The notes under the pieces were generated by a model that ran no database searches, was not told the DNA's origin, and saw only the letters and a program-made list of their open reading frames with translations. DNA of 64,000 bases from Epinephelus fuscoguttatus (taxonomy: Eukaryota > Chordata > Actinopteri > Perciformes > Serranidae): the NCBI RefSeq assembly GCF_011397635.1, contig NC_064773.1:2052501-2116500 (forward strand), written 5' to 3'. This document shows positions 16,438 through 61,197 of this stretch, piece after piece. How positions within the stretch are numbered: the first letter of the stretch is position 1; each line of letters begins with the position of its first letter. The translations under genes and the position numbers were made by a program.

Positions 16438-19056
16438 CGGAGGTACGTGTCTTCTCTCTGTGATATGAAGGACAGTCTGTGTGTGATCTGGTACAGTGCA
16501 GTGGATCTGTAGATGTGAGGTGTCTCTGCTCTGCTGTCAGCTGGTCGACCTCGTGTTTTAAATGTCTCCGCTTGGTCCAGATGTTGTCGATGCTGCGGGG
16601 GCTGATGTTGCAGATATTGGAGGTGATGATGACAATGCTGCTGCTGCAGAGAACTTCCTCCCTATAGATATGGACAACATGGAGCTGGACCAGGACCACC
16701 CAGAGGAGCACGTGGACAGACACCAGGTCTCACTTTTCTTTTCAGTCTAGCTTGAAGACGTTAGATCGTGTGATTCTCTGACTCTTCCTCCGCTGACTCT
16801 GAATTCTTCTTCACTGTTTCAAAATGTGTCTCAGGCTCCGAGTGACGGCAGGATGATCCGAGAGAGACGGCAGGTCGAGGCCAACAAAGTGATGAGGGAG
16901 GAGACGCCTGCTGTATGTTGATTAACATCTTTATCACTCTGTTGTCATCACTCTGTATTTGAAATATTACAACTTTATCTCTGAACCTGCGACTGTGGCT
17001 TTCAATATTTCAGATTCATTTCTTATCAAATTTTCTATATTATAAGTCAGGGTCGTAAGTGTCTGTGTTTTGTGTTTCAGGTGAACGTGTGGGCACTCCA
17101 CGACCCGTACGCCGTCATCGGGGAGGACAAACCCTTGAAACCAGGTGAGCTGCAGGATCTCAGGTGCTCTTTGATACAGTGTGGCGTCGCTCTCATTTCT
17201 GACAGAGTTGTGTCTGTTTAAGGAAAATGCTACAAGGTTCCCGACGGCCTGGACGATGGTGGTAAGAGGAAGAGGAGACGACCTGGTGCACTTCAGGACT
17301 TCAGGAGCTGGTTCAGAGGAACCTGTGAGTTTTGTGTGTTGGTGATACCAAGATGTTTTTGTTCACTTTGTGAATGAAACTGAACAGTTTGATTGTTTTG
17401 TTTCAGTCGATCCTCCTGAGCACAAGTTAAAAAGTGGACCCAAGTTTGCAGGTAACGACTTTCTCTTCAAGGATCAGTTCTGTTTCTCTCCAAAGTGATA
17501 CTGCGCTCAATAGCTGGTTAGCTTAGCTTAGCATGAAGACTGGAAACAGGTGGGAACAGCTAGCCTGGCTCTGTCCAAAGGAACACAATCCACCTACCAG
17601 CTCCTCTAATGCTGCGTTCACACTACACGACACGTCTCTCTGTTAGTAGGTCAGATTAGGAGATTGTGGAGTCATAAAATCTCACCATGACTTGGCCGAC
17701 ATTTGAAGTACCTTTTTCAAATCTTTTTCAGACCTGAACTACATTTATTTGAGCTCAATCAAAGATAAGCTGAGGACACGAAAGAGGATCAACAAGAAGA
17801 AGGTAGGACAGAGTGTGTGTGATGTGTTACTGTCTTCAGGTAAATGATGAACGTGATGATGCGTTGTGACGTCATTCGGCGTGTGGTATTGCAGTGAAAT
17901 CTTTTGTACTTTAACTCTGGAAAAAATTGATCTCTGACAAAGAAGTGTGCAACAGAACAGTCATTCAAGTCGGAATTATATGTTGGAAACTCGGGCAAGA
18001 TCCATCAAGCTGGAGTTGCACACCTGACGTCACGGCAACATGGCGGTGCGCAGAGCAACCTTTTCATCATGTCGTTGCTGCTGCTATGGTGGTTCACAAT
18101 ATTACGCTCAGCACCCGTCAACACAATTTTGAGCTACTGTACATTAAAGGGATAGTGCACCCAAAACTGAAAATTCAGCCATTATCTACTCACCCATATG
18201 CCGAGGGAGGCTCAGGTGAAGTTTTAGAGTCCTCACATCACTTGCAGAGATCCAAGGGGAGAGGAGGTAGCAACACAACTCCACCTAATGGAGGCTGACG
18301 GCGCCCCAGATTCAAACCTCCAAAAACACATCATTGAAACCACAAAATATCTCCATACTGCTCGTCCATAGTGATCCAAGTGTCCTGAAGCCCCGACATA
18401 GACGGAGAGGCAGGCTACAGGCTACAATGGCTATAAAAAAGGCTAAAAACAGAGTTCAGATGAGGTTTTCCCAAACAACTTTTTATGTCGGGGCTTCAGG
18501 ACACTTGGATCACTACGGACGAGCAGTATGGAGATATTTTGTGGTTTCAATGATGTGTTTTTGGACGTTTGAATCTGGGGCGCCGTCAGCCTCCATTAGG
18601 TGGAGTTGTGTTGCTACCTCCTCTCCCCTTGGATCTCTGCAAGTGATGTGAGGACTCTAAAACTTCACCTGAGCCTCCCTCGGCATATGGGTGAGTAGAT
18701 AATGGCTGAATTTACATTTTTGGGCGCACTATCCCTTTAATGTGCTTAACGAACACAGACCAGTGGGACCGTAACGCACCGCAGTAACTGATTCTTGCAG
18801 GCGCCCATGTTTTCCTGAGCAGGTGCACCGGGACATTTTAGATCAGAAGTTGGGAATACAGAGTTGGAATTATCGACTCCGACTTAAAAAGAATTCCAAC
18901 ATTTGTGATGTGGAGTGTGATGTCACTCAGGGTGTGGTGGTCTCTGATGAAGAACTGATGAGGACCTACCTGCAGCCGGAGGAGGCGGGGCCAGAGCAGC
19001 AGGGGGAGGAGCCTGTGGATGGTTTCAGACACCCCGACCTGCTGGGTAAAACTGCT

Positions 19057-35926: not shown

Positions 35927-38900
35927 CACAGATTTATATTTGTGACTAAAGTATCATTCAGATATCAGAGTATTAAGACGTGTGGTGTCTGTAAACAGTG
36001 AGTCAGCTGCAGTTCATGAACTCTCAATGATTCACAACACGTTAATAATTTCCTGTGATTATGTGTCGTCATTCAGATCACGTGTGGTTTGAGTTTATAA
36101 ACTGTGTGAGAGAGAAAAGATTTGAAACAGAGAGAGAGGTTGTGAACAGATGACAGGAGGATGATGATGATGATGATGATAATGATAGAGTGATAACAGA
36201 ATGATGTCTTTCACCATGACGCTGTCACTCTCAGTACGTGATTGGCTGCCTGCCAGGAGGCCAAAAACCAATCAGTGAGCTGAAAATATCAAACCTGCAG
36301 GATGTCGGTGAGCAGCACCACCGTCACCACCACCGCCGCTGCTGCTGCTGCTACAACATGTACTGTACATATATAACACACATATTCACGAGACAGCAGT
36401 GAGACAGCAGTCCCCTGTCCTCTGTCAGATAATGTCCTGTTTAACGTTAGCTTGGCCGTCAGCTGCTATCGCTATCTCTGGATGGTGGCGTGAGAGGTGA
36501 GCCCTCATGGTATTTTATTCTCATATCACATCACATCACATCACATCACATCACATCACACTGCTGTAAATCACGTGTGTCATATCCAAGTCCTCCTTTA
36601 AATAAGTCCAGATGTTTGATTTAAACGCTGATGGCATATTTCTGATTTCTGTCTCCGCTGCCTCCATCTTAAATATTTTTTGGGGGGGGCTTTTTCGCCT
36701 TTAATGGACAGGACAGAGTGAAGAGTGTGAAGTGGGGAGAGAGAGTGGGGGGGGCGACATGCAGCAAAGGGTTGCAAGCCAGAGTCAAACTTGCGACCGC
36801 TGCAGCGAGGCATCACCTCTATACATGGGGCACCGGCACTATCCACTAAGCTACCGACCCCCCCGGTGCCTCCATCTTTGTTTTGATGAACTTCCTGCCA
36901 AATGCTAACCTGGAAATCCAGACCCAAATCTAGAAAGATTTAGGGTCTGGCTATGAGTAATGCAAATGGCCCAACTCGAGGGGCGGCACCAAGCATGCAT
37001 TTGAAAATATCACTGCACGCAATTGGATAACACTACAACCAATCAGAACAATACACGGGGTGACATATCCAGAGCTTAGCTACCAGCGGAGCTAACTGGT
37101 AGATTAGACTCTTGCCGTATCCGGTCGGCAAAACAGCAAAAACGTCCTTCTTGCAAAGGAAAGACTCGAGCGCCGTCTTCTGTTCCTCTTTTAGAGAAAA
37201 AGCCAAGTCTAACTCGTTCATTGTAGCGGCCAAAGCCGTTTCAAACAACTGGTGTTCATCCGTAGCCATCTTGCAGTGTTTACTGACTGATTCCGGACTT
37301 TGTCGTTGCAGCACTGTCGCCATCTGTTTAGTTCGCTTCTGGCCCGCCTATATCAGATACACCGATGTGATTGGTGCAGCTCGGCTCCAAGGGCATGGGT
37401 AATGAGCATCATTACTGATTGCCAGAGTGACTCGCTCAGCAAATTCAAATTGTGCTCTCGCAAGAACTCTGGATTTCCAGGGTAGCCAAATGGCGCTGAC
37501 TGAGACCTCTGCTGACCTCGCCCCAAAAAAACCCCATCAGCACCATCTAGTGGAGGGAAAAAGCAACTGATTTTATTATTCTAGGACCAAAAGTTGTATT
37601 TAAATGTGTATTAGCAAAAATGAATGATGTAACAGATCCATACTTGGCGTCTGTGTATCGATTCAATATGGCCACGCAAAATATCGTGATATGGACGTTT
37701 TCCCTACTAAACAGAAGTGTTAAAGAAATTTGTGAAAAGCTTAAAACATTCATTCATTCATCTTCTTGAGGGTTGCGGGGGGGCTGGAGCCTATCCCAGC
37801 TGACATCGGGCGAGAGGCAGGGTACACCCTGGACAGGTCGCCAGACTATCACAGGGCTGACACATAGAGACAAACAACCATTCACACTCACATTCACACC
37901 TATGGACAATTTAGAGTTATCAATTAACCTGCATGTCTTTGGACTGTGGGAGGAAGCTGGAGTGCCCGGAGAGAACCCACGCTGACACGGGGAGAACATG
38001 CAAAGTCCGCACAGAAGGGCTCCCACGCCTGGGATCGAACCGGCAACCCTCTTGCTGTGAGGCGAGAGTGCTAACCACCACACCACCGTGCCGCCCTAAG
38101 CTTAAAACATAAAGAAAATATTCTCATGTTCATCTTCAGGGGACTTTTGATCCCGTTAATATATCTTGTGACTGATTTCATGTCTGCATTAACAAGCTTT
38201 GCCCTTATATGTGTGTTTGTTTATATTATTGCAAAATATTCCTCCACCCTCATGTCACAGCTGGTTGTGATTCTCCGTCATCACCATCAGATGGAGCCAC
38301 TTTACAAAAGACAAAGACAAATTTTAAACTTAGTGTGTTTTGTACCTGACAGAGCTGCTGCCAACTGAAGGTGGAGTTTTAGCTGAATCATGTCTTTGAT
38401 ACAAACAGATGTTAACGCTGAGCTCTTCTTCTCTCTGTGTGTGATGAAGACGAGCTGTGCGAGCTGAAGGTGGAGAAGCCGATCATGTTGGCAGAAACTC
38501 TGACGGCCAAAGAGAGGGAGTCCATGGAGGAGAAGGAGGAGACGGTGGGAGACGGAGAGAAAGGCCAACAGGAGGAAGAGAAGGAGGTGACGGAGGAGAA
38601 GGAGGAAGAAGAGCCGGAAGGAGGAGGAGGAGGAGGAGAAGGGAAGGATGAAGAGGAGGAGCTGGAGGAGCTGAGAGCTCAGGTGTTTCAGCTGCTGCTG
38701 GAGGTGGAGGAGGCCAGAGAGATTTCACAAAGACACGAGGAGAGTTTCCTGGAGCTGCAGGGTCAGAGACCAACCAGATAATAATGTTCATATCTTTAAT
38801 GTGTAAAAACACAGGAAATGTCCTGCTCCTCCTCTTCATCATCCTCGTCTGTTTCTTCTTCTCTGATCTCAGGTCTGTTAGAGGATGAGCGACTGGCGAG

Positions 38901-60211: not shown

Positions 60212-61197
60212 CACGGGTGGGAAATCGATACAGCACAGCATCACGATACTTTGCATGACGATATTGTGTCGATACACGGACGCCAAGTATCGATCTTTTA
60301 GTATAGACATAATTTTTGCAAATACACATTTTAACACAACTTTTGGCCCTAGAATAATAAAATCAGTTGCTTTGTCGGGCCACTAGATGGTGCTGATGTG
60401 TTGTTTCCTGGTGAGGTCAGCAGACGTCTCATGGTGCGTTTGTTTTGTACTCGGAGGTCAGAAATTTCCAGTTCCCAGTCAGAAGTTTAAACTCGAACGC
60501 ACCTTGAGATTGGATTTCCAACTCGGAAACTCGGAACAGCCGCATCAGCCCCGACTTACAAATTCAAGATGGCTGCCAGTCACATACATAGTGAGTAAAC
60601 ACGCTACTAAAGTACTGTTTATAGCAACTTTATCTTATTTGTTTTGTTTTACATCAGGTCAGTGTCATCTGCGGCGTTCATCAGTTGGAGTGCTGGACTC
60701 CGAAAGTGCAAGGGCAACAAAGGCTTTCTTGCGAACGTCCATGTTTTTTCCAACTTGTCCACCGTTGTCAACTAGAATACAAAAACTGTTGTCAACTCGG
60801 AGGTGACGTCATTCCCACTTCCGACTTCCGACCTCCAAGTACGAAACGAATGCAGCATCAGTCAGCGGCATTTGGCGGGAAGTTCATCAAAACAAAGATG
60901 GAGGCACCGGAGAAATCAGAAATGTGTCGTCAGCGTTTAAATCAAATATCTGGACTTATTTTGGATTTTCTAACACAGAAGGAAGACTTGGATATGACAC
61001 ATGCGAACTGTATCTTGAGGAGGTAAAACTGATGTTGACAAAGTTTTCCTTTGGAGAAATAATTTGCAGTTTGAAAAAAAGGTCATAAATCACAATATAT
61101 TTTATCGCAGTCATCAGCATATCGCAATAATATCGTACCGTGACCTACGTATCGTGATAATATCGTATGGTGGGTCCTTTAGCTATTCCCACTCCCC
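60212..61197 (+). mobile_element. hAT-type element family D, copy 2 (with nested MITE)
   Basis: The ends are CACGGGTGGGAAATCGATA and the complement of ATTCCCACTCCCC. An exact 8-bp duplication, GTAGAAAC, flanks it (60204-60211 and 61198-61205). The interior has many CGATA/ATCGTGATAATATCG words and a conserved block around ATGGAGGCACCGGAGAAATC. It is 986 bp including the nested MITE. The right part includes a short frame but no recognisable transposase. Confidence 0.9.
60432..60857. mobile_element. MITE nested in hAT family D copy 2
   Basis: The ends are TGGTGCGTTTGTTTTGTACT and the complement of GTACGAAACGAATGCAGCA. TCA flanks both sides (60429-60431 and 60858-60860). The uninterrupted paralogue near 37510 reads GTCTCAGTCAGCGCC on its own strand, confirming the insertion point and the 3-bp duplication. 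The superfamily is not decided, because TCA is not the TWA of Harbinger. Confidence 0.85.

Follow-up and report, generated by a model that had tools for sequence, protein, structure and literature searches.

Results

A discrete insertion with 9-bp target duplications

The DNA analysed here (the window) is a stretch of 64,000 nucleotides from Epinephelus fuscoguttatus. Its positions 36906-37484 are a discrete transposon insertion, whose features are collected in Table 1. An insertion with inverted ends had already been noticed at this place in a sequence-only reading, and this observation stands. The boundaries then drawn lay 2 bp outside the true element ends, and the inverted ends (TAnCCTGGAAATCCAGA), reported as 19 bp, are 17 bp long with one mismatch. 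In the family consensus, the left end reads TAGCCTGGAAATCCAGA and the right end TACCCTGGAAATCCAGA (minus strand), the mismatch within the 17 bp being TAGCC versus TACCC. The string TAGCCTGG is also present at window positions 17561 and 62772. A search of positions 36000-38500 against Rfam gave nothing at gathering threshold.

Table 1. Features of the insertion and of its empty site (window positions)
Feature	Position	Strand	Remark
Whole non-autonomous element, 579 bp	36906..37484	.	limits from 40 copies with 9-bp duplications
9-bp target duplication, left copy GCCAAATGC	36897..36905	+	agrees with empty site
9-bp target duplication, right copy GCCAAATGG, one mismatch	37485..37493	+	
Left inverted end TAACCTGGAAATCCAGA (family consensus TAGCC...)	36906..36922	+	
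Right inverted end TACCCTGGAAATCCAGA, minus reading	37468..37484	-	
Palindrome CTGGA-AA-TCCAG inside left end; same one in right end	36910..36921	.	
Read-through past deletion junction, 13 codons and stop	37033..37074	-	left-terminal sequence fused to helicase
RecQ-type helicase N-terminus, 65 codons from ATG, Walker A LPTGYGKS	37075..37269	-	homologous frames in L039, L084
Paralogous empty site; single target copy 60868-60876	60858..60910	-	52/53 identical across junction

The target duplication, previously given as 5 bp, is in fact 9 bp long. In the window copy GCCAAATGC and GCCAAATGG differ at the last base of nine, and the perfect match is shorter than 9 bp because of this difference. Five base pairs are ruled out by the changed base in the right copy, together with the boundary having been set too far out. 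When the ends are set as TAGCCTGG...CCAGGGTA, the flanking 9-mers are exact duplicates in 23 of 40 copies and show at most one mismatch in 34, as compared with agreement at a mean of 2.5 of 9 positions when left and right flanks are mispaired as a control. The six low scorers are L043, L046, L058, L065, L066 and L067. Sequences of the duplicated 9-mers vary among copies.

The paralogous empty site, formerly proposed near position 60870, was recovered as well: flanks joined through one target copy align at 52 of 53 positions to 60910-60858 on the minus strand. The flank motif adjoining the site is found at two places in the window, where 0.03 occurrences would be expected. In the paralogous copy, right-flank homology restarts only at 60431 (minus), so that about 427 bp intervene after the empty site; these bases (window 60432-60857) are possibly another insertion.

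The helicase remnant and its frame

The minus-strand frame MATDEHQLFETALAATMNELDLAFSLKEEQKTALESFLCKKDVFAVLPTGYGKSLIYQLAPLVAK matches the Pfam DEAD profile with an E value of 6.7e-6 and 26.4 bits, just above the cut-off of 26. The helicase start seen earlier, a frame running from an ATG through a Walker A motif, is thus borne out. The 13 codons after the helicase part are unrelated sequence.

Could the 78-codon frame of the deleted element be a maintained gene, coding for example for a repressor peptide? Of the 40 copies, 29 have it intact. With expectations derived from the spectrum of changes outside the frame, a count over all copies gave 85 amino-acid changes against 153 expected and 77 silent changes against 88; for changes shared by at least two copies the numbers were 13 and 15, against 24 and 15.3. 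Single-copy changes, however, are neutral in ratio (37 amino-acid and 14 silent, 49.5 and 19.1 expected). The amino-acid shortfall is confined to the shared changes, which are few and inherited, and intact frames are to be expected anyway in young copies. Constraint on the leftover peptide, suggested by the first counts, was therefore rejected on the neutral ratio of the single-copy changes. There is no clear selection on the leftover frame after insertion in the 40 copies, the shared changes leaving a little room for it, and a maintained gene appears very improbable.

Copies of the window family in the genome

A genome search with the window element returned 1416 first-look candidates, of which the 40 most like the window copy were scored: the window copy itself (100%) and 39 more with identities of 96-97%. 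Their divergence from their own consensus is 2.1% on average (range 1.0-3.1%), and the window copy departs from the family consensus at 13 positions. Because the scored copies are those that resemble the window copy most, the whole family may be older than they indicate.

Longer relatives carry more of the helicase

The same ends as those of the window element delimit a 1751-bp relative at C20:4500873-4502623 (L084:701-2451), whose 9-bp duplication, AGCCTTATC, is exact. In this relative, which is older than the window family, element positions 1-169, 177-297 and 403-470 are matched at 74-77% identity. Between positions 169 and 177 it contains about 1.2 kb of extra sequence, of which the next part of the helicase is a portion. 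The continuation reads SPLIALMDHQIKEAAKLG...DEVH; its 67 amino acids taken alone gave no match in Pfam, and they match helicase frames of other element families. Since the extra sequence sits exactly at the junction of the window element, the window family derives, by deletion, from an element that bore a helicase. The internal deletion postulated in the sequence-only reading is supported in this way, more of the helicase being held at the deletion point. DUF6589 (see below) was not identified in the C20 relative, the closest long copy at 74-77%.

The expectation that full-length copies would encode a helicase held for the longer relatives on C20 and C17, and an intact full-length parent with exactly the ends of the window family was not found. 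A pattern for helicase sequence past the junction has 169 matches in the genome; five loci from among those listed, compared with the consensus (L104-L107, L109), are all deletion-type copies. Some of them belong to a sister subfamily, in which the junction is slightly different. When L084 was used as query in a protein search, the 150 matches scored of 1023 candidates were, apart from L084 itself, 67% identical or less.

The relative at C17:1986430-1996527 is 10.1 kb long. It starts with TAGCCTGGTTCCAGACC and ends with CTGACACTCAGGCTA, that is, begins TAGCCTGG and terminates in CAGGCTA, and an exact 9-bp duplication, GACAAAATG, borders it on both sides. Its right end was located through this duplication, a search by similarity to the left end having failed, and its ends differ from those of the window family past the first 8 bp. 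The helicase N-terminus (from L039:2648 on) matches Pfam DEAD at 1.3e-10, and its frame finds 36 PDB sequences with E values of 7e-7 to 3e-5, including chains of RECQL5, RecQ, RECQL, WRN and BLM. A later helicase part at C17:1989630-1990106 corresponds to positions 158-296 of TIGR00614 (E 1.3e-12) with one stop inside; further on, Helicase_C scores 20.8 bits, below its Pfam cut-off of 23.5, and Pfam gives no match for the frame L039:5621-6013. The helicase is interrupted, as a reverse transcriptase frame (RVT_1, 4.5e-15) separates its two parts, and the C17 copy is clearly broken. One query from its C-terminal helicase recovered C17 only, another C17 together with a weak match on C18 (28%). 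Clusters of matches to TIGR00614, a RecQ model, were found also at C4, C19, C22 and C17:20.9 Mb, where they presumably represent host RecQ genes.

A DUF6589 protein on the opposite strand

The opposite strand of the C17 element encodes a DUF6589 match of 67.5 bits (cut-off 27, E 1.2e-18) covering profile positions 249-389 only. A 487-aa frame upstream of it has no match in Pfam and resembles, at 28% identity, a frame beside the DUF6589 copy on C18. Throughout the 1.05-Gb assembly, the Pfam profile gave six DUF6589 matches in five places; the C17 protein as query found three places (C17, C18, C14), all within those five. Both DUF6589 groups of the genome lie above the Pfam cut-off, and profile comparison of the helicase-linked group with the other yielded weak local matches (hhalign probabilities 0.5% and 2.3%). 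The frame on C21 is open for 1062 aa. At L077 (C21) and L080 (C9), a conserved frame with the motif SHEEADT...GCDTTSQF comes after DUF6589, and an XPG-like nuclease was considered for it; Pfam and PDB searches for such a nuclease at these two places gave nothing, and the assignment was dropped for want of support from either.

Pfam names DUF6589 as a family whose function is unknown, a literature search on its name found nothing, and no known transposase family was matched by Pfam in the frames scanned. We take DUF6589 to be the putative Academ transposase, the support in this genome being its linkage within the C17 element only.

Other short families with pieces of the helicase

Short elements are far commoner than DUF6589 loci: three genome searches gave 1416, 1050 and 1492 first-look candidates, these being loose counts that overlap in kind. 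Apart from the window family, two more multi-copy short families with TAGCCTGG ends hold other helicase pieces (L096-L103; L020-L038). The loci of the second family were taken from the TIGR00614 search. Nine of its 15 loci have both ends, TAGCCTGGTGAAACC and AACGCCAGGCTA, with at most 2 substitutions. Scored as the best among alternative end placements, the 9-bp flanks agree at all 9 positions in three of these loci; two loci have 8 agreements, two have 7, and one each has 6 and 3. The third family (L096-L103) combines the C17 ends with a helicase motif-Ia piece different from the piece in the window; both ends are present at six of eight loci, with flanks that agree at 9 of 9 positions in four of the six, at 8 in a fifth and at 4 in the last.

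These families bear on the idea of a single capture, in which an unrelated MITE would have picked up a host RecQ fragment and no helicase parent would exist. The shortness of the helicase piece and the failure to find an intact recent parent would fit such an event. Against it, three families with TAGCCTG-type ends and 9-bp duplications hold different parts of related helicases, and the long C17 element has both N-terminal and later helicase parts. A single capture is largely refuted by L084 and C17, and we give it hardly any credence.

Palindromes in the element ends

Just inside TAGC, the ends contain short palindromes, namely CTGGA-AA-TCCAG, CTGG-TT-CCAG, CTGA-GTG-TCAG, CTGGC-GTT-GCCAG and TGGT-GAA-ACCA. 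Their letters change between families and pairing is mostly kept. Within their first 20 bases, 9 of 11 ends examined contain a stem of 4 bp or more that encloses a loop of 2-3 bases, against 1.7 expected from shuffled tails; the 11 ends are those already in hand and are non-independent, the left and right ends of the window family and those of the C20 relative being one type and the left ends of F2, L082 and L088 being alike. The stem starts at position 5 or 6 in eight of the nine and at position 10 in L087; L083 and L088 have none.

Such palindromes may only mirror a symmetric protein-binding site. It is also conceivable, if unlikely, that they form hairpins, with the RecQ helicase unwinding the ends and the transposase reading the folded single strand. 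If true, this would be a mechanism unexpected of a classic cut-and-paste transposon, and if paired palindromes at the ends proved general, a role of the helicase in transposition would become testable.

Discussion

The window element is short, has many copies and inverted ends, lacks a transposase and possesses a longer coding relative, all traits by which a MITE is recognized. We interpret it, with a probability of about 0.8, as a non-autonomous, MITE-like deletion remnant of a helicase-encoding transposon, probably of AcademH type. Its larger parent would have had a gene for an SF2 helicase of RecQ type, read inward from one end, and, on the opposite strand, a gene for a DUF6589 protein, the probable transposase. 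An internal deletion would have left both end regions and the first 65 helicase codons, and the short element would then have been moved in trans by an AcademH-type transposase in a cut-and-paste manner, with 9-bp target duplications as the result. We infer that the parent of the window family itself also had DUF6589. The DUF6589 protein putatively catalyses transposition, and the helicase would assist in it.

The element is filed as probable AcademH type because a helicase and duplications of 9 or 10 bp describe AcademH in print. According to the passages available from PMC10045372, AcademH elements encode a helicase and have 9 or 10 bp duplications, those of AcademX are 3 or 4 bp, and the difference seems tied to the encoded helicase and nuclease. 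Of the candidates considered, the Academ type, named in the sequence-only reading, fits best by its 9-bp duplication and helicase, and on these grounds the lineage of the window family is probably AcademH. The ground on which an unusual family had been suspected, a 5-bp duplication, is gone, 9 bp being a length given for AcademH in those passages.

Kojima (2020) reportedly dealt with AcademH DNA transposons from animals and fungi. Our literature search on Academ-H with fish and transposable element found nothing. The parent type appears to be already described, and the find is real and fairly ordinary.

Membership in another helicase-bearing lineage, for instance a RecQ-carrying Kolobok, or in a MULE-type group with 9-bp duplications, is improbable, if less so than a single capture. 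MULEs make duplications of 9-11 bp, which counts for the MULE type. KolobokH elements, and Kolobok-1_CCri on its complementary strand, encode a RecQ helicase too, as stated in the available part of PMC9587614. The same part gives Kolobok duplications as TTAA, in contrast to the varied 9-mers found here. Furthermore, the protein linked to the helicase matches DUF6589, and the frames scanned contain no known Pfam transposase family, which speaks against both Kolobok and MULE.

The results tie a large group of this genome's short repeats to helicase-encoding transposons, and link DUF6589 to such elements. The corrected duplication length removes the hint of a new superfamily.

Among known systems, hAT, Harbinger and Tc1 elements, with the 8, 3 and 2 bp ascribed to them in the sequence-only reading, are unlike the element with its 9 bp. 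KolobokH shares the RecQ helicase and differs in its TTAA duplications; it is stated to combine a transposase with that helicase in fungi only (PMC9587614, in the part available). In Marasmius oreades, putative short non-autonomous Academ elements are called widespread (PMC8290104); they are likewise short and non-autonomous, their host is a fungus, and the accessible passages of that paper do not mention a helicase remnant. From AcademH proper the window copy differs in being a 579-bp deletion derivative without transposase. It resembles AcademH, as characterized in the available passages, in being derived from a helicase-encoding DNA transposon, of which an N-terminal remnant is present in the window and more in the C17 and C20 relatives, and in its duplications, AcademH having 9 or 10 bp and the elements described here 9 bp, exact in C17 and C20.
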